NCBI RefSeq assembly: GCF_001438655.1 | Contig: NZ_JQBR01000004.1 | Span: forward strand, 124,001 to 188,000 | DNA: 64,000 nucleotides | DNA from: Pediococcus cellicola | GTDB taxonomy: Bacteria > Bacillota > Bacilli > Lactobacillales > Lactobacillaceae | Direction: 5' to 3' | In this document: positions 46,139 to 62,904 of the stretch, piece by piece | Layout of the letters: each line of letters begins with the position of its first letter | Numbering within the stretch: the stretch's first letter is position 1 | The notes under the pieces: generated by a model | Told to the model about the DNA's origin: nothing | The model's input: the letters and a program-made list of their open reading frames with translations, nothing else | Databases searched by the model: none | Program-made: the position numbers and the translations under genes

Positions 46139-46140
46139 TT

Positions 46141-47184: not shown

Positions 47185-47237
47185 TTTCTTTATTATCTCC
47201 AAATCTTATAACTAAGTTCTTACCAACAAATAATTCT

Positions 47238-48146
47238 TTAAGTTATGAATCCTGATTTCACAAACATCATCAACAACGGAATTACGGCTAGACTTAATAA
47301 AGTCGTTTCCGTCACCATAATTGCTGCATACTGCTCATCAGCATGATACAATTTGGCAACCACCGGTGCATTTGTCATGACCGGCATGGCAGACTGTAAA
47401 ATAAATACCTGCTTCATTAAGATCGGCACGGGCATTGGAAGCACTAATAGTGTCATCAACAGCGGAGCAAAAATAAATCGACCTGACAACACACCTAAGC
47501 TATCACGATTTAACGATACGTTTTGAATGCCAGCACGTTGAATCGCAATCCCGATGAAAAACATCGAAAGTGGAATCGTTAATCCACCGATATACGAACA
47601 ATCTGTCAAAATAAACTGCGGCAGTTGAATATGAAAAAGAACCAATAAAACCCCCACAATAAATCCCAGTAGTGGCGGCGAAAAGATCTTTTCTAAAGTT
47701 GTTTTCAGGCTAAATGCTTGTTTATGTGTCCCATCGCGTTGAATAAGCCAAACACCTAGTGTCCAAAAAATGGTCGTGTTGGCCATATAATAAACTAAAA
47801 CATAGGGCAAACTTTGGTTTCCAAACAATGCCATGTTGACTGGCAAACCAATAAAAACGGTATTGGAGTTTAAAAACATAGACTCAAATAGCCCGCGATG
47901 TTCCTCTTTAATTTGCATGACACGTATCAACACAGCCGCCAATGCAAATAAAATTAACATCGACAAAACTGGAAAACGTAAATCTGGTAGTGTACTTAAA
48001 AGTCTTTTTGCAGTAAAATCATGAGTAATCGTACTAATCATATAAGCTGGCAGTGCTATTTGGGTAACTAATTTAGCTATTAAACGTGAGGATTGCTCAT
48101 CAAACCATTTACGCCATGACAGCATATAGCCAATGGCAATCATCAC
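47238..48146 (-). CDS. AEC family transporter (auxin efflux carrier/malate permease type)
   Basis: The protein has about ten membrane segments and the family's IALPAYMISTI and NSNTVFIGLPVNMALFG motifs. It likely exports or imports an organic anion such as malate. The first canonical start is GTG 48146 (302 residues), but this cuts off part of the first membrane helix. In-frame homologous-looking sequence extends to 48191 (ITIFLHSIQGVIIII), where AGGGAAG sits seven bases before an ATC codon. A non-canonical AUC start, or a mutated one, is therefore likely. Confidence 0.82.
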   Translation of the reverse strand: MMIAIGYMLSWRKWFDEQSSRLIAKLVTQIALPAYMISTITHDFTAKRLLSTLPDLRFPVLSMLILFALAAVLIRVMQIKEEHRGLFESMFLNSNTVFIGLPVNMALFGNQSLPYVLVYYMANTTIFWTLGVWLIQRDGTHKQAFSLKTTLEKIFSPPLLGFIVGVLLVLFHIQLPQFILTDCSYIGGLTIPLSMFFIGIAIQRAGIQNVSLNRDSLGVLSGRFIFAPLLMTLLVLPMPVPILMKQVFILQSAMPVMTNAPVVAKLYHADEQYAAIMVTETTLLSLAVIPLLMMFVKSGFIT

Positions 48147-48350
48147 AATGATAATAATGACCCCTTGAATACTATGTAAGAAAATTGTGATTTTATCGCT
48201 TCCCTAATTGGTGTATGATAAGTGCAACAATGATTAGTATAGCATATTTTCATAGTCCATTTTCATGATTTGGCCTATGAAATCTGATGTAAGCATAGGG
48301 AAAACGTTTTAATTTTTAAAAAACTATTAACCGAAAAGAGGTCTCTGTTA

Positions 48351-49484
48351 GTGAGCGAAAAACACATGAAAGCGCCCAAGCTCTCGCGCAAAAAGATTTG
48401 GATAATTGCAGGAATCGTGGCTTTAATTTTAGTGATTGCTGGCGGCATTAAAGCCTACACCATGTATACAGGTGCCCAACACGTGGCTAAACAAACCTAC
48501 CAAAAAGCCAAAACACCAACTGCACGTAACGTTTCAAAAGTGATTAAAAATAAAAAGCCCCTGAATGTTTTAATTTTGGGAACGGACACGGGAGCCTTAG
48601 GACGCAAAACCAAAGGCCTGAGCGATACAATGATCGTAGCTTCATTAAATGCACAAAAAGAAACTACCTATATGACAAGTATTCCAAGAGATACTCAAGT
48701 CACCATTAATAATACTTCGCAAAAAATAAATGCGGCTTATACGATCGGCGGCGCATCACAGTCCATTAAAACTGTCCAAAACCTGCTAGATGTTCCCATT
48801 GATTTTTATATTGTGATGAACATGGGAGGGCTTAAAGAACTAGTGAATTCTGTCGGTGGCGTTGACGTTACACCACCCCTAACCTTTAAATATGGTTCTG
48901 CCAATGTGAAAAAGGGTGTTAAAACGCATCTAACTGGAAAACAAGCGCTGTCTTATTCGCGAATGCGCTATGACGATCCTAACGGCGACTATGGTCGTCA
49001 AAAGCGACAGCGACAAGTCATTTTAGCCGTTGTACGTAAGGCCCTCTCAATTAGTTCTGTGACGCGTTTCCAAACCATTCTAAACTCTGTTCAGAAAAAT
49101 ATGAAAACCAACCTTACATTTAATGATATGCTGGCATTACGTTTTAGCTATAAAAATGCTTCTCACCACATCAAATCGACCACATTAGAAGGTGATGGCG
49201 AAATGATTGATGGCCTTTCTTATCAGGTTGCTTCCATGACGGAAAGGCGCCGCGTGTCTAATAAAATTCGCCAAGAGTTGGGACTATCCAAAACAACCAA
49301 GTTAAAAAATGGGACTTCAACTAGTTCTTCAACGGCAAGTTCCTCAACAAATACGTCTGACCAAAGTACGCAAACCACAACAGACACGACAACAACTTCT
49401 GATTCATCAAGTTATGGATACAGTACAACAACGGATACCACCAATCAATACAATAACTCTGGTACACCGCCTGCAACACCTTAA
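48351..49484 (+). CDS. LytR-CpsA-Psr (LCP) family glycopolymer transferase
   Basis: The 377-residue protein has a short cytoplasmic N-terminus, one transmembrane helix (IWIIAGIVALILVIAGGI) and the LCP domain with ILGTDTGA, KGLSDTMIVASLN, SIPRDTQV and the Arg pair SYSRMRYDDPNGDYGR. It attaches wall teichoic acids or capsule to peptidoglycan. The last 70 residues are a low-complexity Ser/Thr tail. It starts at GTG 48351. It is followed by a strong terminator at 49490-49536. Confidence 0.94.
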   Translation: MSEKHMKAPKLSRKKIWIIAGIVALILVIAGGIKAYTMYTGAQHVAKQTYQKAKTPTARNVSKVIKNKKPLNVLILGTDTGALGRKTKGLSDTMIVASLNAQKETTYMTSIPRDTQVTINNTSQKINAAYTIGGASQSIKTVQNLLDVPIDFYIVMNMGGLKELVNSVGGVDVTPPLTFKYGSANVKKGVKTHLTGKQALSYSRMRYDDPNGDYGRQKRQRQVILAVVRKALSISSVTRFQTILNSVQKNMKTNLTFNDMLALRFSYKNASHHIKSTTLEGDGEMIDGLSYQVASMTERRRVSNKIRQELGLSKTTKLKNGTSTSSSTASSSTNTSDQSTQTTTDTTTTSDSSSYGYSTTTDTTNQYNNSGTPPATP

Positions 49485-49489
49485 AATTC

Positions 49490-49536
49490 AAAATAGGAGC
49501 CTGGAAATTGATATCTTTTCCAAGGCTCCTATTTTT
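49490..49536. terminator. Bidirectional terminator between the LCP gene and accA
   Basis: A long stem (49490-49507 with 49516-49534, one internal mismatch) is flanked by A- and T-rich tails. Confidence 0.85.
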
Positions 49537-49595
49537 ATGTGTTACTTTCCGTCTAACCCGCCAATTAACTCTATTTTGGCATAATCAATATTGTG

Positions 49596-50369
49596 CTAAC
49601 ATGACAAAAGGCGAGCAAACTTCTGCTGTCTTTGCCGTTTCAACGCATCCGCATCCAAGCTTTCAAGACGCTTAAGTGCTGCCAGCAATCCCGCATCAAT
49701 TCTTTCATAAAGTGTTTTAGCCGGCGTTTCAGCAATAATTCCATCAACCAGCCCTATACCCGCTAACTGTTGTGCCGTCATCGGCATATATTCGCTAGCA
49801 TCACGGGTCTGGTTCTGATTTTTTAAAATAGCTTGAACGGCTTCCGGAGAGGCAACCGAAAACAAGGCATTTTCTAGCATCAAAATTTTATTAACATTAC
49901 TAAATGCCAAAGCTCCTCCACTATGTCCCTCACCTAAAAAGAGTGTCACATTAGGAACTGTCAGCTGACCCATCGCCAAAATTAAATCTGCAATGGCTTG
50001 ACTTTGACCATGCTGTTCAGAGAAAACACTGGCGTCAGCTCCTGGCATATTGAGCATCGAAATAACTGGTCGTTTAAACTTTTCAGCAGTTTTAATCACC
50101 CTTAAGGCCTTACGATACCCTGTCACGCGAACCGCGCCTGCATTCATTTCCTGCCTTTGTTGAATATTGGCCCCACGGTTGACCCCTAAAAGTGTGACCG
50201 GTCGCCCGTGAAAGAAGCCCAATCCGGCCGTAAGTGCCCTGTCATCCCCTAATTGCCGATCCCCATGGATTTCGAAAAAATCGGTTATTAACTGACTAAT
50301 CACCTGTTGTGCAGATAGGCGCTTGGCAGAACGCACAAGGGCTATTTTTTCTTCTAACTTTTTTGGCAT
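49596..50369 (-). CDS. accA: Acetyl-CoA carboxylase carboxyltransferase, alpha subunit
   Basis: The 257-residue protein has FFEIHGDRQLGDDRALTAGL, MLNMPGADAS and EGHSGGALAFSN, the CoA-binding crotonase-fold motifs. With AccD it transfers CO2 from biotin to acetyl-CoA. It is the last gene of fabH-accB-accC-accD-accA, 4 bp after accD. Confidence 0.96.
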   Translation of the reverse strand: MPKKLEEKIALVRSAKRLSAQQVISQLITDFFEIHGDRQLGDDRALTAGLGFFHGRPVTLLGVNRGANIQQRQEMNAGAVRVTGYRKALRVIKTAEKFKRPVISMLNMPGADASVFSEQHGQSQAIADLILAMGQLTVPNVTLFLGEGHSGGALAFSNVNKILMLENALFSVASPEAVQAILKNQNQTRDASEYMPMTAQQLAGIGLVDGIIAETPAKTLYERIDAGLLAALKRLESLDADALKRQRQQKFARLLSC

Positions 50370-50373
50370 GCTT

Positions 50374-51162
50374 TCATTTCCCCCGATGTAATTTCAACAA
50401 AGTAGCTAAACTACTGCGCAGGCGCTCACGTGGGACAATTTGGTCAACCAGACCATGCGTCAGTAAATCTTCAGCCGTCTGAAAATTGGCTGGCAAAATT
50501 TCATGCGAAGTTTGGGCAATCACCTGTTTACCAGCAAACCCAATCTGAGCCTTATCCTCGGCTAACACATAATCTGCTTTAAATCCAAAGCTCGCAGAAA
50601 CACCACCCATCGTAGGATCCGTTAAAACGTTAATAACGAGGGTTTTTGCATCTAACAACGCTTGCCACTCGTTTAAAATTGAATTCATCTGCAAAAGCGA
50701 ATAAATGCCTTCTTGCATGCGTGCCCCACCAGATGCAACAAACAATATCAACGGTATTTTTTGTGTCAAAGAAACCTGCATAATCTGTTTTAGCGCTGCA
50801 CCTACCGCGGTATTCAGTGTTCCCATCATAAAGTGGCTGTCCATAATTCCTAGCGCCACCGGATAGTTGTCAATTTTTGCCGTGCCAATTTCGATTGCTT
50901 CTGATTCACCGGATATCTTTTTAGCATCCTTAAGTTTGTCTTGATATCCAGGAAACTGCAAAGAATCTGATGTCTGCTTTGGCAATACCATTGGCTGCCA
51001 ACTCTCTGGATCCACGCTGATTTTTAAGCGCTGAGGGACACTTAACCGTTGCAAGTAATGACAAAAAGGACACCGAAAATACGGTGCCCACTGAAGTTCA
51101 TGGACATGCTTGCCACAGTGCTTACAAACTTGCCAGCGATTTTTTTTAGGCATATGACTCAT
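50374..51162 (-). CDS. accD: Acetyl-CoA carboxylase carboxyltransferase, beta subunit
   Basis: The 262-residue protein has the N-terminal four-Cys zinc ribbon (CKHCGKHV...CPFC), then VASGGARMQEGIYSLLQM and PTMGGVSASFGF. It pairs with AccA. It overlaps accC by 17 bp; GGGAGA precedes the ATG at 51162. Confidence 0.97.
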   Translation of the reverse strand: MSHMPKKNRWQVCKHCGKHVHELQWAPYFRCPFCHYLQRLSVPQRLKISVDPESWQPMVLPKQTSDSLQFPGYQDKLKDAKKISGESEAIEIGTAKIDNYPVALGIMDSHFMMGTLNTAVGAALKQIMQVSLTQKIPLILFVASGGARMQEGIYSLLQMNSILNEWQALLDAKTLVINVLTDPTMGGVSASFGFKADYVLAEDKAQIGFAGKQVIAQTSHEILPANFQTAEDLLTHGLVDQIVPRERLRSSLATLLKLHRGK

Positions 51163-52489
51163 TTTTGGTTTCTCCCATTAATTCTTCAACTGAATGGATT
51201 GTATAGTGATCTTCCATAAAAGCCTTGCTGTGAACGAGTTGTCTCAACTCACTCAGATTGCTCCCGATGCCTTCAACTCTCACTTGTTCAAGAGCATCTT
51301 GCATCTTTAGAATGGCCATTTTTCTGGTCTTAGCACTCACAATAATTTTCGCAAGTAGGCGATCATAATATGGCGTCACCTGATCGCCTGCCTTTAAGCC
51401 GGTATCTACTCGTGCTTTTTCAGGAAGGCAGAATTGATCCAAACGCCCCGTTTCAAACTGACCTTCCTCTAAGTCATTTTCGGCATTTAACCGGCATTCA
51501 ATGGCATGTCCTTTAAAATGAATCGTTCGCAAATTTGGTGTTTCACGAGCCGCCACCTGAATTTGTGCTTGCACGATGTCAACTTGACTAGTTTCTTCAG
51601 TAACGCCATGTTCCACTTGTAAACGCGTGTTCATTTCCAAAAAGTAGAATTGATGATGCACAAATAAGAATTCAACTGTACCAAGACTTTCATAATGGGC
51701 ACCATCCAATAATTGATGAACAAGTTGATAAAGTTGTTGACGTTCGGCTTGATTCAAAACGCTCGCATTACTTTCTTCAATGATTTTTTGACGATGTTTT
51801 TGTAAGCTACAATCACGATCACCTAGAATCATCAAGTGGTCACGCCACCCCAACACTTGCACTTCAATATGACGAGCGGTTTCAAAATCTCTTTCTAAGT
51901 ATACTGTACTGTCCAAAAAGGACATTCCTGCTTCTTCTTTAACGGTTTCGTATTTGGCTAATAATTCTTTTGCTGAGTTAGCTTTGCGAATGCCTTTGCC
52001 ACCGCCACCATGACTGGCTTTTAAGAGTACTGGATATCCTAGTTTGTTAGCCGCTGCATAGAGTTGAGGTTCACTTGAAATCATCTCAGAACCCGGAATA
52101 ACCGTGAGTCCCCGGCTTAGGGCAATTTTTCGGGAATGCGTCTTATCAGAAAAATCTCGAATGTGTGTTGCTTGTGGGCCAATCCAAGTCATACCACACT
52201 CTTCACACATCTGAGCAAACAGTTCATCCTCAGATAAAAATCCATATCCAGGATGGATCGCATCTGCATGTATATTAATGCCTGCCATCAAAATGGCTTC
52301 ACGATTTAAATAGGAATCCTTAGCCGCTGCCGGACCAATACAAATAGCCTCGTCGGCCAGCTGAACAAACATTGCGCCCTGATCAGCTTTTGAAAAGACG
52401 GCAACAGTCGCAATATCCATTTTTTGGCAGGCACGAATGATACGAATCGCGATTTCGCCACGGTTTGCAATTAATACTTTTTTAAACAT
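51146..52489 (-). CDS. accC: Biotin carboxylase subunit of acetyl-CoA carboxylase
   Basis: The 447-residue ATP-grasp protein has KVLIANRGEIAIRIIRAC, the glycine-rich KASHGGGGKGIRKA and the catalytic FLEMNTRLQVEHGVTE. It carboxylates biotin on AccB using ATP and bicarbonate. It overlaps accB by 8 bp. Confidence 0.97.
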   Translation of the reverse strand: MFKKVLIANRGEIAIRIIRACQKMDIATVAVFSKADQGAMFVQLADEAICIGPAAAKDSYLNREAILMAGINIHADAIHPGYGFLSEDELFAQMCEECGMTWIGPQATHIRDFSDKTHSRKIALSRGLTVIPGSEMISSEPQLYAAANKLGYPVLLKASHGGGGKGIRKANSAKELLAKYETVKEEAGMSFLDSTVYLERDFETARHIEVQVLGWRDHLMILGDRDCSLQKHRQKIIEESNASVLNQAERQQLYQLVHQLLDGAHYESLGTVEFLFVHHQFYFLEMNTRLQVEHGVTEETSQVDIVQAQIQVAARETPNLRTIHFKGHAIECRLNAENDLEEGQFETGRLDQFCLPEKARVDTGLKAGDQVTPYYDRLLAKIIVSAKTRKMAILKMQDALEQVRVEGIGSNLSELRQLVHSKAFMEDHYTIHSVEELMGETKNESYA

Positions 52490-52874
52490 TCTGATTTCCT
52501 TTTACTAAAGTCATGAGGGGCTGATCATAAGCGACTGGATCGCCGTTCTTAACGTGAATAGTCGCGATGGTCCCGGCTTGTGTACTGGTAACGTCATTAA
52601 ACAACTTCATACTTTCAATTTGTGCGACTACTTCACCCTGTTTGATCGCTTTTCCTGCCTTAAGTTGTTTTTCAAGGTGAACAACCCCTACCATGGGACT
52701 TTTAATAACGACCTCATTCGTATTGGGAAGATTAACAGTCCTCTCAGTATTTGAAGAAACACCTGATTTTTCTTTTTTGACATGTATTTTGACTTGATCA
52801 AATTCTAAATCCACTTCACTGAAATTCATTTTCTCTAATTTGTCCAGTAAGTGATCAACATCCGTTATATTCAA
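52482..52874 (-). CDS. accB: Biotin carboxyl carrier protein of acetyl-CoA carboxylase
   Basis: The 130-residue carrier has an N-terminal helix, a charged linker, and a biotinyl domain with IESMKLFNDV, where Lys of SMKL is biotinylated in place of the usual AMKM. I start it at a TTG at 52874, eight bases after a perfect AGGAGG; in-frame sequence further upstream overlaps fabH. It lies between fabH and accC. Confidence 0.94.
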   Translation of the reverse strand: MNITDVDHLLDKLEKMNFSEVDLEFDQVKIHVKKEKSGVSSNTERTVNLPNTNEVVIKSPMVGVVHLEKQLKAGKAIKQGEVVAQIESMKLFNDVTSTQAGTIATIHVKNGDPVAYDQPLMTLVKGNQNV

Positions 52875-52887
52875 ACTAATCAACCTC

Positions 52888-53868
52888 CTAGAAATTGATA
52901 AGCATGCTTGCATAATCCAACCCAGCACCAAATCCTGTTAAAAGAATTTTTTTCGGTGCCTGTGCATCTCGTTTCAATTGGTCCAGTGCCATAGGAATTC
53001 CCGCTGAAGAAGTGTTGCCATATTGCACAACATTAACCGGAAATTTCTGCATCGGAATGCCTAGAGTCTGGCTAATCTTTTCAATGATACGCAAATTAGC
53101 TTGATGACAAATCACAGCATCAATGGTCGTAGCATCCAAGTGATTTTTGGCAAGAATGTGCTGCATCTGAACGGGTACTTTTTCAGTTGCAAATGTAAAC
53201 ACCGAGCGGCCATCTTGAAAAAAGGCATCCATTTTTGGATAATTTGTTGCGGCAATTTCTTTGATTGGCTGCACCCGGCCACTATGAATAGTTTGGTGTT
53301 CACTACCTACACTTTGTAATTTTTCATCAATTAAAAATTCTTCGTTTGAATTTTCAGTGACCTCTAAAAGTGCCCCACCAGCTCCGTCACCAAAGAAAAC
53401 CGCTGCCGTTCGATCTGTAAAATCCATCATTTTAGAATTTGTTTCCCCGCTAATCACCATGGCATTGTGATAGCGTCCTGTACGCAGAAATTTTTCCGCT
53501 GTGCTCAAGCCGAACACAAATCCAGCACACGCTGCTGAAATATCCATTGCAAACGCGTTTTTAGCGCCAATCTTGTCCTGAACTATACAAGCCGTAGCCG
53601 GTGTTAAGCTATCCGGTGTGATTGTTGAAACCAAAATTAAATCAATGTCGGCCGCTTGTAAGCCACTTTTTTCAAGTAATTGCTGAGCAACCTGCGTACA
53701 CAAATCAGAAGTATCTTCGTCATTCATCGCATAGTGTCGTGTTTGAATACCCGTATGCGTTTGAATCCATTCATCACTGGTATCCATGATTTTACTTAGT
53801 TCAAAATTGTCCACAACCCGTTTAGGGACATAATGACCAGTTGCTGAAATCTTAACGTTCACCGTCAT
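52888..53868 (-). CDS. fabH: Beta-ketoacyl-ACP synthase III
   Basis: The 326-residue thiolase-fold enzyme has the catalytic triad in SAACAGFVFGL (Cys), CHQANLRI (His) and YGNTSSAGIP (Asn). It condenses acetyl-CoA with malonyl-ACP, the first step of fatty acid synthesis. The ATG at 53868 has GAGGAAG upstream. It heads a five-gene fabH-accBCDA cluster; an extended -10 (TGTTAAAAT) lies about 45 bp upstream. No FabT-like operator was recognised. Confidence 0.96.
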   Translation of the reverse strand: MTVNVKISATGHYVPKRVVDNFELSKIMDTSDEWIQTHTGIQTRHYAMNDEDTSDLCTQVAQQLLEKSGLQAADIDLILVSTITPDSLTPATACIVQDKIGAKNAFAMDISAACAGFVFGLSTAEKFLRTGRYHNAMVISGETNSKMMDFTDRTAAVFFGDGAGGALLEVTENSNEEFLIDEKLQSVGSEHQTIHSGRVQPIKEIAATNYPKMDAFFQDGRSVFTFATEKVPVQMQHILAKNHLDATTIDAVICHQANLRIIEKISQTLGIPMQKFPVNVVQYGNTSSAGIPMALDQLKRDAQAPKKILLTGFGAGLDYASMLINF

Positions 53869-53984
53869 ACTAACTTCCTCACTTATTCCTGTTTTCTTTA
53901 TTTTAACAATCTTTGCGATTCTTGGGTAATTTGGAATGGCTTCCACGTTAAATTTTTACACTTTATTAGTTTTTGGCCCAATAA

Positions 53985-54029
53985 AAAATAGTAACACCCA
54001 GAAATGAACATTCCCAGATGTCACTATTT
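53985..54029 (-). terminator. Terminator of the manO-EIIA-EIIB unit
   Basis: On the minus strand AATAGTGACA pairs imperfectly with TGTTACTATT around a longer loop, with a T6 run after it. Confidence 0.7.
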
Positions 54030-54034
54030 ATTGA

Positions 54035-54535
54035 TTAAAGATGATATTTTTCTAACATCGGTAAAATTTCTTTTTTGCCGTCACTTGGAACTTTCTGTGC
54101 AAAAACATCTAACCCCAATTCATGCAAAGTACGAATGGCCTTCACTTCCAAAGGACCCACTGCAATGGTCTCATTTAACATGGTCATTCCTTCTGAATAA
54201 GCCAGGCTACCAATGTCAATACCTAAATGGCTTAGATTGACACCGCCCTGAACCAACCTTAACATGTCTTGGACCGTCTCCGTTAACAGAAGAATTTTAA
54301 ATGAATCAAACATAGGATCATGATAGAGACGCAACATTTTTTCAATCGTAATCACATTAGTCGGTACGCCCATCGGTGCAGCCTGCGTGATTAACGTCTT
54401 ACGTAACGCATCATTGGCAACATTATCAGATACCACCAAAATGCGGTTTGGATGAATATTTTTTGTCCATGAGGTCGCAACTTGTCCGTGTAGTAAACGA
54501 CTATCCACCCGAGCTAATAAAATTTCCATTGCCAT
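54035..54535 (-). CDS. PTS mannose-family EIIB, stand-alone copy
   Basis: The 166-residue protein has the EIIB-man signature LARVDSRLLHGQVATSW, with the phosphorylated His at residue 16. It would take phosphate from an EIIA and pass it to the sugar in the EIIC-EIID channel. Its start overlaps the stop of the EIIA gene (TAATG). It is the second EIIB of this locus; the first is fused in 57362-58342, and the proteins are clearly paralogous. Confidence 0.93.
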   Translation of the reverse strand: MAMEILLARVDSRLLHGQVATSWTKNIHPNRILVVSDNVANDALRKTLITQAAPMGVPTNVITIEKMLRLYHDPMFDSFKILLLTETVQDMLRLVQGGVNLSHLGIDIGSLAYSEGMTMLNETIAVGPLEVKAIRTLHELGLDVFAQKVPSDGKKEILPMLEKYHL

Positions 54536-54945
54536 TACCTACCGTCTCCGTCATCTTGAATTTCCAAGTGACGCACGCCAGCTTTGGCAGTTGCCTCCAA
54601 GTGCATGACAACTTCTGATAATGTACGATCGCGCACCGTATAAGCTTCAACCAACATGGGTAAATTCAGGCCCGCAAGTAACGCCATGTTCTCTGCATGT
54701 TCAGATACAATTTGGGTAGCCACATTAAAGGGTGTGCCACCATATAAATCGACCAGCAAGACAACCTGGTCCTGTTTTGAAAAACCAGCAAGTGCCTTTT
54801 GATAATCTTGCATTAGTTTCTCTGGATCTTCACCAGGTTGAAAATTGACTGCAACTATTTTTTCTTGTGCTCCAAAGATCATAAAAGACGATTTTAAAAT
54901 ACTTTCCGCCAATTCACCATGACTGGCGACAATATATGCGATCAT
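54535..54945 (-). CDS. PTS mannose-family EIIA, stand-alone copy
   Basis: The 136-residue protein starts MIAYIVASHGELAESIL, with the phosphorylated His at residue 9, and has VVLLVDLYGGTPFNVA. It accepts phosphate from HPr. The ATG at 54945 has GGGGAG eight bases upstream; a GTG at 54954 also opens the frame. It lies 58 bp after manO and overlaps EIIB. Confidence 0.93.
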   Translation of the reverse strand: MIAYIVASHGELAESILKSSFMIFGAQEKIVAVNFQPGEDPEKLMQDYQKALAGFSKQDQVVLLVDLYGGTPFNVATQIVSEHAENMALLAGLNLPMLVEAYTVRDRTLSEVVMHLEATAKAGVRHLEIQDDGDGR

Positions 54946-55003
54946 ACACTTCACTCCCCTTGTCTGCTTGTCTCTTGATGCTCAAGTCTGTCAGTTGTCT
55001 CGA

Positions 55004-55384
55004 TTAATGACTTTTCCGTGTAACTAGGCGCTTGACCCCGCGTTTAATCACATCCCACATTCCTAATGAACGTACAATGCGGTCTGGGTCTACATAATTG
55101 CGAATCGCACGTAAGACTTGCTTAGGATCCTTTGCTGCAAAAGAATACGTGCCATTCTTTTTTGTCTTCATAGCAAATCTAGGAATCCACTTGCCCTTGA
55201 AAATCACAGAAACGATCACATAATCCACTTCATCCCAAGGAATTTGGACAAATTTTCTGACATCTCGATCGTTAAAAAACTCGAACCCGCGATCGCCAAT
55301 CATAATTTTTCCATAGTCTGTCATTCCTAAAAAAGAAGTGCCTTCTACTACGAGATCAACCTTTGTATTAATCGATTGTGGCAT
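55004..55384 (-). CDS. manO: DUF956 protein ManO, accessory to mannose PTS
   Basis: The 126-residue protein matches the DUF956 family found at the end of Lactobacillales man operons: NTKVDLVVEGTSFLGMTDYG and VQIPWDEVDYVIVSV. A regulatory role in man expression has been proposed for the family, but the mechanism is unclear. It is preceded by its own promoter (55421-55449) and a terminator after EIID, so it probably starts a separate unit with the second EIIA and EIIB. Confidence 0.9.
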   Translation of the reverse strand: MPQSINTKVDLVVEGTSFLGMTDYGKIMIGDRGFEFFNDRDVRKFVQIPWDEVDYVIVSVIFKGKWIPRFAMKTKKNGTYSFAAKDPKQVLRAIRNYVDPDRIVRSLGMWDVIKRGVKRLVTRKSH

Positions 55385-55420
55385 TTAATTTTACTCCATT
55401 TCTTCCTCTTAATGACCACC

Positions 55421-55449
55421 ATTATAAGGCGTTTCGGTCATTTAAGCAA
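55421..55449 (-). promoter_or_regulatory. Sigma-A type promoter of manO-EIIA-EIIB
   Basis: TTGCTT (55444-55449) and a perfect TATAAT (55421-55426) are spaced 17 bp apart on the minus strand, about 40 bp upstream of manO. Confidence 0.75.
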
Positions 55450-55492
55450 AATAATTTATGATTCAATCAAATTGTTTTACCTGCATCACTTA

Positions 55493-55543
55493 AAATTTAA
55501 AAAAATAAGTAAAATCATTTCTGACTTTACTTATTTTAAATTT
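55493..55543 (-). terminator. Terminator after the EIID gene
   Basis: AAATTTAAAATAAGTAAA pairs with TTTACTTATT and the following T- and A-rich bases, giving a long AT-rich stem and T7 tail on the minus strand. It is 50-100 bp past the EIID stop. Confidence 0.7.
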
Positions 55544-55593
55544 GTCTTTTCCTTAAGACTGGTTATCAGCCTATCCCAATATAGTGATTAATT

Positions 55594-56508
55594 TTACATT
55601 AAACCAATAACGTGGAATACAACACCGACAACGAACAAGCCAAGAATGACAACTAATGGAGAAACCTTCTTCTTTAAGAGCCACATACATAAGAAAGTTA
55701 AAAGAACAGCTGCTAAACCTGGAATCAAAAGATCCAAGTTATCTTGTAAGGTAGTCACCTTATCAAGTGTTAATGAACGACCTGCAGCTTGTTGAATCAA
55801 GGCTTCCTTAATACCAGCAGCTCCTGATGGAAGATGACTCCAGTCAATGTAGGCACCTTTTTGTTGACGCACTGTTGAAACAATCGGCGTAAACTTCACA
55901 ACTACCCAGCGGTTAATCAACGCCCCAATGATAAACATACCTACGATGGAAGCAACTTTAGTGACGTTTTGTAATAAGCCACCGGATAAATCATTCGTAA
56001 TCGCACTACCTGCTCGGTAGCCAAACTCTTGTGTATACCACATAAAGCCCATTCGGATGACGTTCCATGCGACAAAGTAAAGAATTGGTCCCATGATATT
56101 TCCACCCATTGCAAGTGAAGCAGCAACGGCACCAATAATTGGTTTAACAGTGTACCAGAACACAGGATCACCAATACCAGCTAAAGGACCCATCATACCA
56201 ACTTTAACGTTTTGGATCGTGGCATCATCAATTGGAGCACCATTTGCACGGTCCTCTTCAAGGGCCATTGTGACACCAATAATTGGTGAAGCCAAGTAAG
56301 GATGAGTATTAAAGAATACCAAATGACGCTTCAAGGCCTCAGAGCGTTCCTCTTTTGTCTTATACAAGCGTTTAATCATTGGAATTAATGAATAACACCA
56401 GCCACCATTTTGCATACGTTCGTAGTTCCATGAACCTTGAATGAATGTTTGACGTAGCCAGATAGAAATATGATCGCCACGTGTTAATTTTATTTGTTTA
56501 TCTGCCAT
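55594..56508 (-). CDS. manZ: PTS mannose-family EIID
   Basis: The 304-residue membrane protein begins after a charged N-terminus, with IWLRQTFIQGSWNYERMQ, GVTMALEEDRANGA and MGPLAGIGDPVFWYT, all typical of EIID-man. With EIIC it forms the sugar-translocating complex, which also serves as receptor for some class IIa bacteriocins in related species. GGAGGAG precedes the start. It lies 21 bp after the EIIC gene. Confidence 0.96.
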   Translation of the reverse strand: MADKQIKLTRGDHISIWLRQTFIQGSWNYERMQNGGWCYSLIPMIKRLYKTKEERSEALKRHLVFFNTHPYLASPIIGVTMALEEDRANGAPIDDATIQNVKVGMMGPLAGIGDPVFWYTVKPIIGAVAASLAMGGNIMGPILYFVAWNVIRMGFMWYTQEFGYRAGSAITNDLSGGLLQNVTKVASIVGMFIIGALINRWVVVKFTPIVSTVRQQKGAYIDWSHLPSGAAGIKEALIQQAAGRSLTLDKVTTLQDNLDLLIPGLAAVLLTFLCMWLLKKKVSPLVVILGLFVVGVVFHVIGLM

Positions 56509-56529
56509 TTTCTATGCTCCTCCTTTTCT

Positions 56530-57336
56530 CTAATAATGATCAATAATATCGCCAACAGGGTCGCCAGTATTTGAACCGCCACCATTATTAGATCCACCTT
56601 GTTGTGAAAGTGAAAGGTAAATAAGAGCGAGGGACAAACCAATAGCACCAAGTGCAATTAAAGTTAATTGACTAATGGTTGCTAAAACAAAACCAATGGC
56701 AAAGAATGGCCAAACTTCACGGGTAGCAATCATGTTAATAACCATTGCATATCCAACGGCCACAACCATACCACCACCGATTGATAAACCATCTGTTAAC
56801 CAGCTTGGCATTGCATCTAACATTCCCTTAACAGGACCAGCACCAATTGCTAAGATTAATGCGGCAGGAACTGCAATTCGGACACCTTGTAAACAAACAG
56901 CAAATAAATGCCAGCCTTCAACACCACGAATACTTCCACGGCTAGCTGCAGCATCCATCAAGTGAACAACACCAGTTGCAATGGTACGAACAATGATAGT
57001 TAAAAGTAATCCGGCAACAGATAGTGGAATTGCAATCGCAATCGCTGATGAAACTCCGGCTCTGCCCTGTCCACCAAGAACAAGAATAATTGCAGATGCA
57101 ACAGATGCTAAAGCAGCATCAGGTGCGACAGCAGCACCGATATTTGCCCAACCCAAAGCGATCATCTGAAGTGAACCACCTAAGATCATGCAAGGAACTA
57201 AGTTTCCTGTTACCAAACCAATTAAAGTACAAGCAATTACTGGTTGATGAAAATGGAATTCATCCAAAATTCCTTCCATACCAGCTAGAAATGATACTAA
57301 AATAACTAATACCACTTGAATAGCGTTTAAAGTCAT
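56530..57336 (-). CDS. manY: PTS mannose-family EIIC
   Basis: The 268-residue polytopic protein begins MTLNAIQVVLVILVSFLAGM and has GMEGILDEFHFHQPVIACTL and ALGWANIGAAVAPDAALASV, hallmark EIIC-man sequences. The C-terminus ends in a Gly/Ser/Asn-rich tail (QQGGSNNGGGSNTG). It lies between EIIAB and EIID. Confidence 0.96.
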   Translation of the reverse strand: MTLNAIQVVLVILVSFLAGMEGILDEFHFHQPVIACTLIGLVTGNLVPCMILGGSLQMIALGWANIGAAVAPDAALASVASAIILVLGGQGRAGVSSAIAIAIPLSVAGLLLTIIVRTIATGVVHLMDAAASRGSIRGVEGWHLFAVCLQGVRIAVPAALILAIGAGPVKGMLDAMPSWLTDGLSIGGGMVVAVGYAMVINMIATREVWPFFAIGFVLATISQLTLIALGAIGLSLALIYLSLSQQGGSNNGGGSNTGDPVGDIIDHY

Positions 57337-57361
57337 GATTATTCCTCCAATTTCTTAAAAC

Positions 57362-58342
57362 TTAAGCTTTCTTTTGTTTGTTCAACTCATTTTGAGCTTT
57401 TTGAAGAATTGCATCCATATTTTCCTTTGAATCAGCAGGAACCTTACGAACATCGAATGTCACTCCATCAGCTTTTAATTTTCCAAACGTATCAATATCA
57501 TCTTGGTCAAAAGCCAAAACTTTGTTAGGTTGAACCTTTCCTACAGAATGTGACATAGAACCAATATTTAAAGTCTTAATTGGCACGCCACCTTCAATGG
57601 CCTTAAGCGCATCTTGTGGAGTTTCAAAAAGTAATAAAGCTCGTTGACCACCAAAATGCTTATCATCTTTAGCCAACTTAATCATTTGATTGATTGGAAC
57701 CACATGAGCCTTAACACCAGAAGGAGCAGCTTGCTTAATCATATTGGTTCGCAATTCATCGTGTGCCACATTATCGGAAACAACGATAATCCGTGTTGGA
57801 TTCGTCGTCTTTGTCCAAGTTGTTGCAACCTGACCATGAAGTAAACGAGAATCAATTCGTGCCAAAACATATTCAAGCTTGCCAGGCGCGCCTGCATTTG
57901 ATGGTTGTGCGTTTGCTTTAGCAGCTGCCTTTGGTTTTGGTTGTAATTCTTCTGGTCGAATTTTGATTCCTTCTACACCAGTTTCGAGGATATGAGCTGC
58001 GATGTCACGCGCACTATCCATAGACATTCTGGAAGCATATGCTTCAATTAACATTGGCAAATTCAATCCAGAAACAATTGCCCACGTATCTTTGTGAGCT
58101 TCAAATAAGTTATTAACTTGGTTGAAAGGTGTGCCGCCCCATAGATCAACTAAGAATAATACCTCATCTTGATTCTCGAAAGTGGCAACCGCCGCTTCCA
58201 ATTTTCCTTTAATGTCATCAGGTCCTTCGCTGGGTTTTAACGTAACAGCCTTGACGTCTTTTTGTTCACCGAAAATCATTGATCCGGATTGCAAAATACC
58301 ATTGGCGAATTCACCATGACTAGCAATGATAATCCCTACCAT
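57362..58342 (-). CDS. manX: PTS mannose-family EIIAB
   Basis: The 326-residue fusion has an EIIA domain (IIASHGEFANGILQSGS with His9, LFLVDLWGGTPFNQ), an Ala/Pro linker (PKPKAAAKANAQPSNAGAPG) and an EIIB domain (LARIDSRLLHGQVATTW). It phosphorylates mannose, glucose or a related sugar during uptake. It is the first structural gene behind the sigma-54 promoter at 58477-58492, with a leader of about 120 bases. AGGAGG precedes the start. Confidence 0.97.
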   Translation of the reverse strand: MVGIIIASHGEFANGILQSGSMIFGEQKDVKAVTLKPSEGPDDIKGKLEAAVATFENQDEVLFLVDLWGGTPFNQVNNLFEAHKDTWAIVSGLNLPMLIEAYASRMSMDSARDIAAHILETGVEGIKIRPEELQPKPKAAAKANAQPSNAGAPGKLEYVLARIDSRLLHGQVATTWTKTTNPTRIIVVSDNVAHDELRTNMIKQAAPSGVKAHVVPINQMIKLAKDDKHFGGQRALLLFETPQDALKAIEGGVPIKTLNIGSMSHSVGKVQPNKVLAFDQDDIDTFGKLKADGVTFDVRKVPADSKENMDAILQKAQNELNKQKKA

Positions 58343-58476
58343 TTCTATACCTCCTAATTTTGATTGTTACAGTAAATAAAATTAATAAATAAGTTCTCTA
58401 TACCCTGTAACTAATTTTTGAATCAGACGTTGATACTTAAGTACAAGACCATCATTTTTGCACTCACCCTTATATA

Positions 58477-58492
58477 TGCAAAAACCGTGCCA
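58477..58492 (-). promoter_or_regulatory. Sigma-54 (-24/-12) promoter of the mannose PTS operon
   Basis: The minus strand reads TGGCACGGTTTTTGCA, matching the -24 GG and -12 GC elements with the required 10-bp spacing. Its position upstream of manX, next to a LevR-type activator gene, is strong support. No rpoN gene lies in this window. Confidence 0.93.
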
Positions 58493-58504
58493 AGATACAC
58501 TACG

Positions 58505-58518
58505 TGAAAACGCCTACT
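58505..58518. promoter_or_regulatory. Putative catabolite responsive element (cre)
   Basis: TGAAAACGCCTACT agrees with TGWAARCGYTWNCW at 13 of 14 positions. It lies 13 bp upstream of the -24 box, between promoter and activator dyad, where CcpA could block activation. Confidence 0.5.
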
Positions 58519-58530
58519 TCAACACTAAAA

Positions 58531-58585
58531 AAATGACACACAATCTTTGATACAGAAATAGTGTATCAGCTTTTGTGTGTCATTT
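58531..58585 (-). terminator. Terminator of levR
   Basis: Outer 13-bp arms (58531-58543 with 58573-58585) enclose an inner TGATACA/TGTATCA stem. Seven T residues follow on the minus strand. Confidence 0.85.
58547..58568. promoter_or_regulatory. Candidate LevR upstream activating sequence
   Basis: TTGATACA-N6-TGTATCA forms a dyad about 55-90 bp upstream of the sigma-54 promoter, the usual distance for an enhancer-binding protein. Related TGATAC half-sites occur in a larger palindrome upstream of levR (61545-61582). It is nested in the levR terminator. Confidence 0.5.
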
Positions 58586-58594
58586 TGTCAATAT

Positions 58595-61525
58595 TTAATT
58601 ATTTTGGCCCATAACCGACTTTGACTCGCTTGTTTTAGTCACACTCTTCAGTTGCCAAGTTTCTAACAGTTTTACAACATAATACGTTTCGGCATGTGCC
58701 AAAGTAATACGAATCTTTCTCAAATACGTTTCATTGGCTGCCAAAACCGGTTTGTACCAATTTGATTGCTTAATTTTCTTCAGTTCTTCTTGAGGAGCTG
58801 ATATTTCACCATGCGTCAATGTGCGCTCAATGGCACCTGCGATATGCATAATTAAGTTCACTTTGAAGGACCCTGTAAACTTGGTTTGTGTATCATTTTG
58901 TAACTCATCAATGTATTGCCACAACACATCTGTAATTTTGTGTGGATTAATAAATGTATAAAATTCATCCAGATACTGCCAACACAGTTCTTTAGTTAAC
59001 TTTAAATCCTGATGGTCATCCAAGACGCTCAACGAGTCTCTTTCAATGACTTTATGGATAAAGCTTTCACCGCCACCCTGTAAAACCTTTTGTAACGGCA
59101 TAAAAGGCACCTGAATCTTTGGATGAGTGACCCCTGTCGTTGCAATAATTTGGTACTTTTGTTGAATTTGTTCCAAATGATGTGCCATTCCCACTAAGGA
59201 AATTGGGATGACCTTAATGTCATCAATTAAGTTTTCGACTAAAAGTTGATCCAAAACGTGCTTGATTTTTTTAGCCGTCCCCTCACCAGTTGAACAAATC
59301 GCAATAATGGCTTTGGGACGCGCCACTTCTGGAACACCATCCATCTGCTTAACGGCCGCGGACTCGGCTTCATTAGATTCCGTAGCATTGATTCGAGAAT
59401 AACCGCGAAATTCACGTAACTCAGAATAAATGGCAGCCAAATCGGTATCAATAAAAGAGGCTTTTCTAGCGGCTTCTAAAACCATAGCGGTTGTGACCAT
59501 ATCGATGGTTTTCACCGGAATATGGGTTTCATCCGTAATTTTATGTCCAAATGTACTTAAAGATCCCATATCCACAAGAAGTAACACACCGTTACCTTCG
59601 TCTGCTCGTTTCACACAGTTTTCAATTTCTTTATAGGCCACTTTTGGTTCCATGTCTAGAGGCATATCAAAGGACTGAATGGTGTTGTCAGATAACAGTT
59701 GAGAGACAACTTGTACCATTGAGGTTGCTGTACTGCTACCATGAGCGGCAACCACAATACCCACTTTTCCAGATGTTGGCGCGTCTTTTAAAGAAACCAA
59801 CAAAATTGCTAAATAATAACTCTCGGATTCTGGAATAGGTACGTTATAGCGATTTTCTAGTTTTGACTTTATTTTCTGAGCAATTTGCATTTCATGTGGA
59901 TACTCATCCACCATGGCCACCAAGTCACGGCTCATCGTCCGCATTGGTTTTCCAGACTGGATCCGTTTGATAAATGAACTGATATGCAAACTCATTGCGT
60001 ATAAAAAGTTATCCCGAAAATGATACTCTAATTCTTGCTCAATCTTAGTTTGAATAGCCTTTGTAAAATCAATAATATCTTGGTCTACAATCTCAGCCAA
60101 TTTTGTTTCCGAACGTCCTTCATTTTCATCGGGCGTAAAGGTCTTCAAATGTAAATTAATATCCGTGGTAATAAAATGATTAATGTGTTCTTGATCTAGA
60201 CCTTGTTGGCGCAGCAAGGTGGCTTTATCCCCAATGATTTCGTAAAGATTATATGGCAACTCATAACTATCATTACGATTTGGTAAAACATGATTATCAG
60301 AATCCGGTCGAATGGTCATATAGGGTTCCAACAATTTGGAAATGTCTCCCGAATCCCTTCGATTAGATGCCAAATTAACCAGTCCGTCTTTAATATTGGC
60401 CGGCAAGTCATCCACTGTAATCATAATTTCGCCCTTGTTTTCAATATTATTCAAAAACCCTCGGGCACATACTAGCTGAATATTTGATTTTAATTGTCCT
60501 ACGTTGCCATAAGTCACACTGCCTAATAAGGACTGAACCACGTCTTCAGTCAACGTAATTTGTTTATGGGTTCGTTTCGCTTCAATGCTTAACAACGCCT
60601 TTAGCAGTTCGATCCGCTCTTTAGGACTTCGTTTATTAAACGCCGGTAACTGAATCGTAATAGGAATGCGCCGTACAAAAGTCTTGAGCAAAGAACTTTC
60701 CGGATCCTCGGTGGTAGCACATACCAAACGAACATTGGCATGGTGAATTTTTGACGTTTCACCCAATTTACTGTATGTCCCATGATCCATGAAATAAAAG
60801 ATCATTTCTTGACCTTCCGGGGGCAATCGATGGACTTCATCCAAAAAAAGCATGCCATTATTGGCCTCTTGAATCAGACCGTCTTTATCTTCATTAGCGC
60901 CAGTAAAGGCTCCTTTGACATAACCAAATAGATGTGACATCAGTAATTCTGGATTATGGGAATAGTCAGCGCAATTAAAGGTCACAAGTTCATCGGTTTT
61001 TTTGATCAGATTTTGATTTTTAGCAAACTGAAACATGGCATTGGCAAAATAGGTTTTCCCCGAACCAGTCGGTCCAATCACGAGCGTATTTAAACCACGT
61101 GGTGGATATAAAATGGCGGCCTTAGCCTGTTCAATTTGGTTGTGCATACTAGAACTATTGCCGATCATATGCTCAAAAACGTCGCTTATTTCGTTCGACG
61201 TTTCACTTAGCGAGACACGACTGGGCTTTTCCAAGCCACTATGAATGCGTCTTTTTCCCGCCACAAGAGGAGAAAAGTCTACTTCTTTTTCCTGGTCTGT
61301 TCCGGCATCAATTAATCGGCAGTATCGCACTGGGCGACCGGGTATTTTACTCAGCTTTTTTTCACGCACTAATTGGTTTAATTCCTTACTAACATTTGAC
61401 CGAATTAAATCTAAGGCGTTAGCGACTTCTTCAGTGGTCAGCGCCTTTCCAGTGGTCAATTCAGTCACTGTACTCGTCTGTGTTTTTTCTAGCACAAACT
61501 GATGAATACGTTCTTTTCTTCTCAT
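58595..61525 (-). CDS. levR: Sigma-54 dependent activator LevR/ManR of the mannose PTS
   Basis: The 976-residue protein has, in order, an N-terminal winged helix, an AAA+ domain (Walker A GPTGSGKTYF near residue 150, GAFTGA for sigma-54 contact, Walker B GMLFLDE), a first PRD, an EIIA-man-like domain with His (VVAAHGSSTATS), an EIIB-like domain with Cys (AIICSTGEGTAKKI), and a second PRD (PRD2) ending with conserved His. PTS phosphorylation of these domains is expected to tune activity. The ATG at 61525 has GGAG upstream. It is transcribed in the same direction as the PTS genes it controls. Confidence 0.96.
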   Translation of the reverse strand: MRRKERIHQFVLEKTQTSTVTELTTGKALTTEEVANALDLIRSNVSKELNQLVREKKLSKIPGRPVRYCRLIDAGTDQEKEVDFSPLVAGKRRIHSGLEKPSRVSLSETSNEISDVFEHMIGNSSSMHNQIEQAKAAILYPPRGLNTLVIGPTGSGKTYFANAMFQFAKNQNLIKKTDELVTFNCADYSHNPELLMSHLFGYVKGAFTGANEDKDGLIQEANNGMLFLDEVHRLPPEGQEMIFYFMDHGTYSKLGETSKIHHANVRLVCATTEDPESSLLKTFVRRIPITIQLPAFNKRSPKERIELLKALLSIEAKRTHKQITLTEDVVQSLLGSVTYGNVGQLKSNIQLVCARGFLNNIENKGEIMITVDDLPANIKDGLVNLASNRRDSGDISKLLEPYMTIRPDSDNHVLPNRNDSYELPYNLYEIIGDKATLLRQQGLDQEHINHFITTDINLHLKTFTPDENEGRSETKLAEIVDQDIIDFTKAIQTKIEQELEYHFRDNFLYAMSLHISSFIKRIQSGKPMRTMSRDLVAMVDEYPHEMQIAQKIKSKLENRYNVPIPESESYYLAILLVSLKDAPTSGKVGIVVAAHGSSTATSMVQVVSQLLSDNTIQSFDMPLDMEPKVAYKEIENCVKRADEGNGVLLLVDMGSLSTFGHKITDETHIPVKTIDMVTTAMVLEAARKASFIDTDLAAIYSELREFRGYSRINATESNEAESAAVKQMDGVPEVARPKAIIAICSTGEGTAKKIKHVLDQLLVENLIDDIKVIPISLVGMAHHLEQIQQKYQIIATTGVTHPKIQVPFMPLQKVLQGGGESFIHKVIERDSLSVLDDHQDLKLTKELCWQYLDEFYTFINPHKITDVLWQYIDELQNDTQTKFTGSFKVNLIMHIAGAIERTLTHGEISAPQEELKKIKQSNWYKPVLAANETYLRKIRITLAHAETYYVVKLLETWQLKSVTKTSESKSVMGQNN

Positions 61526-61544
61526 TTTACCAGTCTCCAATTTT

Positions 61545-61582
61545 ACTGATACTGTGTTGATACACTTAAATACAGTATCAGT
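61545..61582. promoter_or_regulatory. Palindrome upstream of levR, candidate autoregulatory operator
   Basis: ACTGATACTGT and ACAGTATCAGT are perfect 11-bp arms separated by 16 bp, which themselves contain TTGATACACTTAA. It ends 20 bp before the levR start codon. The half-site matches the dyad upstream of the PTS operon. Confidence 0.5.
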
Positions 61583-61750
61583 TTAACATACACTACTCAT
61601 TTATACAGAATTGATGCAATCGTTTTAAAAAAGTAATTCGTGATGTGGCCAAATTATGTGAATTTGTCATTCGAACAAATCACGCCTAAAATACAGTTTT
61701 AGACGGTTAACTAAAATTATAAAATCTATTATTAAGGGAGAAGCTTACCT

Positions 61751-62904
61751 ATGTTTCGCAAAGTTCTTTTAACTTTAACTATTCTTTGTTTGTGTGTTGT
61801 TTCAACGACAACGGCAAACGCAAAATCGACTTATAAGCGCATTTCTGTAACCAAAGTCCGTTCACAAACTTTCCACAATGCTAAAAATACAGGCGCTGTT
61901 TATAATCGAACACATTCTAAGCGATTATTCTATCTTAGAAAACATCCCCACACGACCTGGCATGTCACCTATCAAGAAACGTTGCGTTATCACGGAAAAA
62001 ATGCCGTCTACTATTATGTTAAAAGTGGCAACAAAAATATGCCGGTTGGGTATGGCGACACTACCTGCAAAAAGGAGCAGCCCCTTTTTGGATAAAAGCC
62101 ACTCACGCGGCCGCTATTGATGTCAAGACAGGGCATCTTTTATACACTAAAAATGCCACAGCAAAGGTGCCAGTTGCTTCATGCATCAAGTTATTAACGA
62201 TCTATAACGTTTTACAAAAGGTTCACACGGCGAAATACACCTGGAATTCCATTGTTAATACTTCGGGCACGGGATTGTATCAAATGTCTCAAAGTCAAGC
62301 TTGCGGTGGTTTTGTCCTTAAACATCACGTAAAATACACCGTACGGAAACTGTATCAGGCAGCTTTAATTGATTCTTCAAATGCCGCCACAATTGCCTTA
62401 GGGCGCTGGGTAGCTGGAAGCAATGCCAAGCAAATTCGTAAAATGCGGACACAACTCAGCAGTTGGGGACTTCGTGGCAACTATATAATTTCAGTGAGCG
62501 GCCTAGACAATGGTGACTTAAGCCGGTATGGCTATCGTTACCCCGGTTCTGGATATTACGCACAGAACACAATTTCTGCACAAGATTTAGCGGTTGTGGC
62601 AAGAAACTTGGTTTACAAATATCCAGAAGTGACAAACACCACTAAAATTAATCACGCAAGGGTCCACGGACAATGGATTCACAATGTGAACACCACACTC
62701 CCAGGACGAAAATATAATGTCGCGTCGCTACACATCAACGGTCTTAAAAATGGTTATACTCCACGAGCTGGCTACTGCTTAGTTGGTTCGAGTTGTAAAC
62801 CAGGCTATCATAAGCTTATTACTGTCATCATTCATGATGACGATATGAGTAGTGATACTACCGCATTAATGACACACATTTATAAGACCCATCGCTTACG
62901 GTAA
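61751..62904 (+). pseudogene. Frameshifted D-alanyl-D-alanine carboxypeptidase (peptidase S11)
   Basis: The first frame (61751-62095) encodes a signal peptide (MFRKVLLTLTILCLCVVSTT, cleavage near ANA-K) and an SH3-like wall-binding segment. The second frame (to 62904) continues with GWVWRHYLQKG, the SxxK motif (SCIK in PVASCIKLL), SSN (IDSSNAAT) and LKNGYTPRAG, where KNG replaces the usual KTG. The frames join at an A5 run near 62034-62038; one extra A would restore the reading frame. The break may be a mutation, a phase switch or a sequence error. Confidence 0.85.

Follow-up and report, generated by a model that had tools for sequence, protein, structure and literature searches.

In Pediococcus cellicola, a manO-EIIA-EIIB gene group located behind the main mannose PTS operon appears to form a transcription unit of its own, with a sigma-70-type promoter and outside the sigma-54 control of that operon. 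We think it somewhat better than an even bet that its free-standing EIIB is a partner of the activator LevR, comparable to EIIB-Mpo of Listeria, and that it has exchanged LevR/sigma-54 control for the manO promoter. Such a LevR-partner pair driven by the manO promoter is probably a genuine, if modest, change in the wiring of a sugar-control circuit that is already known. The window analysed here is a stretch of 64,000 nt of P. cellicola NZ_JQBR01000004.1, and coordinates are counted within it. On its minus strand the order is levR, a candidate LevR dyad, a sigma-54 motif, EIIAB-EIIC-EIID, a hairpin, a sigma-70-type promoter, manO-EIIA-EIIB, a terminator and fabH-accBCDA (the names fabH and accBCDA were assigned from sequence). 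The features are as follows.

61558-61580, minus strand: another candidate LevR site, shortly before levR, of possible use in autoregulation
58595-61540, minus strand: levR, sigma-54 activator with PRDs and an EIIA-Man domain (PF00158, two PRD stretches, PF03610)
58527-58585, minus strand: larger inverted repeat with a T run just after levR, around the dyad, found by eye; likely the levR terminator
58548-58568, minus strand: candidate LevR site TGATACA-N7-TGTATCA, located 76 bp ahead of the sigma-54 motif
58476-58493, minus strand: sigma-54 -24/-12 motif TTGGCAC-N5-TTGCAT of the main operon
57362-58342, minus strand: EIIAB of the main mannose PTS (PF03610 and PF03830)
56530-57336, minus strand: EIIC of the main mannose PTS (PF03609)
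55594-56508, minus strand: EIID of the main mannose PTS (PF03613)
55496-55540, minus strand: A/T-rich hairpin with a T run after EIID, a predicted terminator (from folding and genus conservation)
55421-55449, minus strand: predicted sigma-70-type promoter TTGCTT-17-TATAAT (from sequence and genus conservation)
55004-55384, minus strand: manO (DUF956), first gene of the unit, adjoining the Man-PTS (PF06115, E 5.3e-55, 184.6 bits against a cut-off of 26.9)
54535-54945, minus strand: free EIIA (PF03610, E 7.1e-28)
54035-54535, minus strand: free EIIB of the Man/sorbose family, 166 aa, the proposed LevR partner (PF03830, E 4.3e-45)
53980-54029, minus strand: predicted terminator after the free EIIB and before fabH (folding z -5.90)

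The original prediction had described a hairpin after EIID followed by a -35/-10 promoter, manO and free EIIA and EIIB, and all of these parts were found; the coordinate at which it ended, 55449, coincides exactly with the -35 of the manO promoter. It had also called the main operon sigma-54 dependent, in agreement with the motif at 58476-58493, which matches at 11/11 positions. EIID and manO are on the same strand, 209 nt apart. The free EIIA and EIIB are open frames with a good ribosome-binding site, and the stop of EIIA overlaps the start of EIIB (TAATG). The EIIA frame opens at a GTG (54954), and its likelier start is the ATG at 54945, preceded by AAGGGGAG; the levR frame begins at a TTG, with a later ATG (61525) being likelier. 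The pair has no EIIC or EIID of its own, the downstream genes being fabH-accBCDA, and the distance from levR to the free EIIB is 4 kb within one locus. A search of 53900-61800 against Rfam gave no hits with an E-value of 0.1 or below. In a scan of named genome contigs, which may leave out near-identical genomes, the sole match was P. parvulus, with a free EIIA 72% identical to that of the window. Another genome placed in Pediococcus (G154, locus L102) has the same gene order as the window. Beside levR, at 61751-62904 on the plus strand, there are two successive ORFs, the first with no Pfam match and the second D-alanyl-D-alanine carboxypeptidase-like (PF00768, from profile position 36), which are possibly one broken gene.

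We next consider the link between the free EIIB and LevR. The window LevR has the sigma-54 interaction domain, the PRDs and the EIIA-Man domain, as revealed by Pfam, and its His519, His600 and His899 are kept in 57/57 LevR rows. His600 (EIIA-Man domain) and His899 (PRD2) were equated by domain with His-585 and His-869 of B. subtilis LevR, which, in the available text of PMC10864463, is stimulated at the former and inhibited by EIIB~P at the latter. The rpoN gene was found in 12/12 Pediococcus genomes. LevR proteins of at least 56% identity were detected in 25 of 151 Lactobacillaceae genomes, clearly separated from the next best at 36-38%, and a free EIIB was present in the LevR locus of all 25. 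Together with G151-G154 and G156 these make a set of 30 Lactobacillaceae loci; levR is not in view in G154, and G155 was left out because its contig ends inside levR. The EIIB was kept without EIIA in 10 of the 30, four of these genomes being Pediococcus. In the Pediococcus loci L039, L042, L043 and L104 there is no EIIA between levR and EIIB, and the gap is 20-31 nt. In the order-wide sample, LevR was present in 143 of 246 genomes, of which 40, all from other families, were fetched. A free-standing EIIB was found in 37 of these 40 loci, mostly right after levR and without EIIA, and no EIIB was in view in the other three (L184 and L221, of one genus, and L219). In most relatives examined the free EIIB lies next to levR.

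Since the LevR histidines match the B. subtilis sites and Listeria Mpo/ManR offers a precedent, we take the free EIIB to be a LevR partner, and by analogy it may phosphorylate LevR. The pair had been proposed earlier to act as phosphorylation signals on LevR; we retain this for EIIB, by linkage and published precedent, and infer the phosphotransfer itself. In the mechanism we propose, the free EIIB would receive its phosphate from the free EIIA, a donor that could be replaced, or from the EIIA half of EIIAB. In the absence of transport of a mannose-type sugar, EIIB would stay phosphorylated and would phosphorylate His899 in PRD2 of LevR, and the sigma-54 operon would be off; sugar would drain the phosphate and release LevR. 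In most relatives examined the EIIB lies behind a sigma-54 motif, so that sensor and target would increase in step. In the Pediococcus clade of the window, levR would have left the manO-EIIA interval, leaving EIIA-EIIB behind the manO promoter with no LevR site or sigma-54 motif, and supply of the sensor would no longer depend on the operon under its control.

The free EIIA and EIIB might instead be spare phosphocarriers that feed EIICD, for transport or as a backup, their linkage to levR being historical. Feeding of the EIICD channel while the main operon is off had been suggested in the original prediction as well. Intact catalytic histidines in all rows fit this explanation, as do seven of the 37 order loci, where EIIB comes in an EIIA-EIIB-EIIC-EIID set. 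Furthermore, three genomes (G010, G024 and G061; L153-L155) have the order EIIA-EIIB-EIIAB-C-D-manO, with the pair directly before EIIAB, and no LevR match at 1e-60; rpoN is missing from G024 and G061, and G010 has a divergent copy. These genomes indicate that it can pay to retain the pair in the absence of LevR. However, EIIB stays by LevR in L185, L186, L188 and L218 although no EIIAB, EIIC or EIID is in view there. The window pair has no IIC or IID of its own, and EIIC and EIID come from the sigma-54 operon, so that there would be little channel to feed when this operon is off. Taken together, we consider the spare-carrier explanation unlikely.

One residue that might have separated transport from signalling was set aside. 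The free EIIB has Gln at the position of Arg304 in E. coli IIB-Man (numbering from the alignment), an Arg that is reportedly needed for transfer to sugar. This position is Gln in 22/68 free EIIBs and Arg in 61/61 fused ones. The other five EIIBs of the genome, each with its own IIC and IID, also have Gln, so the residue proves nothing and was rejected as a sign of a non-transport EIIB.

Sigma-54 motifs were counted when at least 10/11 positions matched directly before the free EIIA or EIIB. Outside Pediococcus, 18/19 Lactobacillaceae loci had such a motif before the free pair or the EIIB, the exception being G099, and so did 30/37 order loci (31 with L208 added by eye, its EIIA being broken into two frames). 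In Pediococcus, the window included, none of the 11 loci had it directly before the free pair. The free EIIB also lacks the motif in G099, L185, L186, L188, L198, L214 and L218, and the condition is thus not confined to Pediococcus. In six of the 11 Pediococcus loci (G044, G076, G004, G103, G129 and G156) the pair, or EIIB alone, is 20-66 nt behind levR; in five (the window and G151-G154) the pair is 4-60 nt behind manO. These data raise the possibility, which we put a little short of an even chance, that the LevR-sensor EIIB of Pediococcus has been taken out of the sigma-54 regulon of LevR, either behind levR or in the manO unit, turning a self-coupled feedback loop into a separate sensor supply.

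Gene order suggests how the manO unit may have arisen. The order EIIAB-C-D-manO-levR-(EIIA)-EIIB is found in the other Pediococcus loci and in the g38 loci, which we believe to be Lactiplantibacillus. In the window clade the genes run manO-EIIA-EIIB-fabH, and levR lies ahead of EIIAB (out of view in P. parvulus). A departure of levR from the manO-EIIA interval would explain both order changes and would place the pair behind the manO promoter; the move was presumably in this direction. In g38, fabH is next in 4/5 loci and acc genes are present in two; across the g38 and the other Pediococcus loci, fabH is in view as the next gene in L054, L065, L110, L138, L139, L156 and L157. A sigma-54 motif precedes the free EIIA in 4/5 g38 loci in a weaker form, GGCAT, with no dyad in the interval tested, which makes the state just outside Pediococcus uncertain. 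Two loci of two other families also have EIIB behind manO, L198 at 68 nt and L214 at 453 nt, a gap so long that the two genes are perhaps not on one transcript. The neighbourhood, if not the co-transcription, has therefore arisen more than once, a hint that ManO is part of this signalling module too.

A candidate LevR site accompanies many of the sigma-54 motifs. The exact dyad TGATAC-N(3-15)-GTATCA occurs twice in the 64-kb window, where 0.05 copies are expected, with no third exact copy; two further matches with two mismatches are at 31457 and 62332. In the loci examined, we looked for dyads with at most two mismatches to TGATACA/TGTATCA, 40-140 bp before sigma-54 motifs that precede EIIA, EIIB or EIIAB. 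Such a dyad was detected before 36 of 63 motifs, compared with 0.58 in shuffles (max 2), a partly circular count in that the consensus was drawn from the window and the window is among the loci counted, with the shuffles as the control. In 34 of the 36 cases the dyad lies 73-91 bp before the -24/-12 element, and the remaining 27 motifs have no dyad within these limits. Similar dyads at the levR start in L099, L101, L186, L189, L218 and L222 suggest that LevR regulates its own gene. Upstream of manO, a dyad with at most two mismatches was found in 0/12 Pediococcus regions, and the best match in the window unit has three mismatches. The proposed site, TGATACA-N-TGTATCA mostly 73-91 bp before -24/-12, is testable. 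The likely levR terminator hairpin (58527-58585) encloses the dyad, and its outer arms, TGACACAC and GTGTGTCA, resemble a variant half-site pair, as in L142.

The manO promoter has a perfect TATAAT and a -35 that matches only in TTG (3/6 bases). A consensus scan of 46000-58000 gave 30 promoter-like sites compared with 30.8 +/- 6.0 in shuffles, no excess, and 12 terminator-like sites compared with 10.0 +/- 3.2, about chance; it listed neither the manO promoter nor the A/T-rich hairpin after EIID, and this single-sequence promoter scan was set aside as evidence. The hairpin itself folds at -20.7 kcal/mol (76-nt segment; z -5.24), with 0/200 shuffles as good. We then compared EIID-manO gaps in the Lactobacillaceae loci fetched, using the 51 of 58 that were at least 60 nt long and dropping the seven shorter ones. 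TTGNNN and TATAAT spaced by 16-18 nt occurred in 19/51 gaps, compared with a mean of 0.3 in dinucleotide shuffles (max 2, 40 rounds), and a terminator-like hairpin with a T run in 35/51, compared with a mean of 3.15 (max 8). In Pediococcus, with G155 counted, the promoter was present in 10/11 gaps (L041 fails) and the terminator in 11/11; the hairpins vary in sequence between species and keep their place and shape. The promoter is also present in P. parvulus, where the contig is cut 92 nt before manO. Outside Lactobacillaceae, such a promoter was found in only 2/19 gaps from other families of the order. Judged on these gaps, the predicted terminator and manO promoter recur in Lactobacillaceae and most regularly in Pediococcus. 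A single promoter match is weak alone, and it is the conservation in the genus that makes this one credible. The separate sigma-70-type unit of the original prediction is thereby upheld, with genus-conserved terminator and promoter and with no sigma-54 motif or dyad. Expression of manO-EIIA-EIIB would, as first proposed, be constitutive, and the promoters would presumably be used independently of read-through. An inverted repeat around the window -10 (AATGACC...GGTCATT) was dropped after its left arm was seen by eye to be lost in P. parvulus. The EIID-manO gap of L100, 457 nt long, folds strongly as one long structure and is perhaps an inserted repeat element.

Read-through is an objection to a separate unit: the main transcript could pass the A/T-rich hairpin and leave the pair mostly under LevR/sigma-54. 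The hairpin is G+C-poor and the gap of 209 nt lies between genes of one strand. We take lmo0099 of Listeria to be manO. It rises with mpt in one Listeria mutant according to the available part of PMC3017082, and manO of E. faecalis falls together with the mpt operon according to that of PMC2941500, a co-regulation that makes read-through possible. Against it, the terminator in 11/11 and the promoter in 10/11 Pediococcus gaps are far above shuffles, and we regard the lack of a functional separate unit as improbable.

Returning to the LevR-partner reading, we asked how old and how constrained the free pair is. In a tree of EIIB (134 rows), the B domains of 61 fused EIIABs are set apart from all other rows by a branch with SH-aLRT 99. 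The window free EIIB groups with the free EIIBs of Pediococcus (SH-aLRT 98), and the clade of five manO-EIIA-EIIB loci has an SH-aLRT of only 88. The EIIA tree points the same way at poor resolution, its fused rows lying on one side of a branch with a support of only 47. The trees are quick ones with SH-aLRT only, built on a chosen part of the loci, and their deep forks are often unresolved. By these trees the free EIIB did not arise recently from an EIIAB half: throughout the order, fused and free EIIBs form distinct lineages. The description of the free pair as paralogous to the EIIAB halves was therefore right but concerns an old event, the EIIB split predating the order, and the phylogeny of both copies, named earlier as a check, separates free from fused EIIBs. 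In the window, identity between free and fused forms is 0.40 for EIIA and 0.44 for EIIB. The active-site His is kept in 27/27 free EIIA rows and in 68/68 free EIIB rows (phospho-His in DSRLLHGQ). Between two Pediococcus members, dN/dS is 0.074 for EIIA, 0.053 for EIIB and 0.049 for manO at a dS of 1.4-1.7, near saturation; the comparison of the window with L038 gives no dS for manO and EIIB. These ratios indicate purifying selection on EIIA, EIIB and manO, as estimated from the coding sequences. That the pair are decaying duplicates is very improbable: free copies diverge faster than fused ones in Pediococcus (mean identity 0.624 vs 0.876 for EIIA in six loci, 0.727 vs 0.807 for EIIB in nine) and EIIA is absent in four genomes of the genus, but dN/dS of 0.05-0.10 (dS near saturation), histidines kept in all rows, open frames and a good ribosome-binding site disfavour it.

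The first gene of the unit, manO, was found in 12/12 Pediococcus genomes. An AlphaFold model of ManO, made with two sequences, had a mean pLDDT of 37 and was unusable. Tandem manO genes are present in L099, L100 and L101, where the second, 37-43% identical to the window manO, lies before EIIA, and several g33 genomes also have a second manO.

In lactic acid bacteria the mannose PTS is a main route of glucose entry, and class IIa bacteriocins use it as their receptor. Its role in class IIa bacteriocin sensitivity is described in the available part of PMC2941500. An EIIB that is linked to LevR throughout the order and has exchanged its promoter class in a single genus would be a natural experiment on whether a controlled operon must make its own sensor, and the arrangement gives a hint about the role of ManO. 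A literature search found no paper evidently on this Pediococcus arrangement, a weak result since most subscription papers were outside its reach.

Several known systems can be compared with the window. The levR-pts10A-pts10B genes of Lactiplantibacillus plantarum belong to the same gene families and presumably stand in the order levR-pts10AB; a 2010 paper by Stevens reportedly deals with sigma-54 in this species. Unlike in the window, manO and the free EIIA have levR between them there. The available text of PMC3162934 predicts a sigma-54 promoter upstream of lp_0586 (pts10A). The mpt locus of E. faecalis (EF0018-EF0024) resembles the window in having an extra, distinct EIIB besides EIIAB-C-D, a LevR-type MptR and manO downstream, but its sigma-54 operon begins with the extra EIIB and manO is co-regulated; the available part of PMC2941500 mentions no extra EIIA.

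In B. subtilis, EIIB~P acts on the PRD2 histidine to inhibit the activator, as described in the accessible part of PMC10864463, and our proposal for the window is alike in this respect. It differs in that the window EIIB is a second EIIB, outside the LevR-controlled operon. EIIB-Lev of B. subtilis is a component of the lev transporter, which is under the control of LevR itself.

The window EIIB is of the Man family, has the phospho-His, lies outside the fused-EIIAB clade and is encoded with a LevR-type regulator. The manR-mpoABCD genes of Listeria likewise place a LevR-type activator beside a mannose-family EIIA and EIIB, and Zebre is said to have found in 2015 that EIIB-Mpo acts on ManR both by contact and by phosphorylation. 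In our tree, free EIIBs of other families group with the Listeria-like rows (L208 and kin, recognised by gene order), the deep forks being weak. The available text of PMC11537053 presents Mpo as a glucose/mannose sensor whose expression is constitutive and which sets the activity of ManR, and that of another paper, PMC10580955, describes Listeria mpo as transcribed by sigma-54/ManR. Listeria mpo has its own IIC and IID, whereas the window pair has neither and is placed behind a sigma-70-type promoter.
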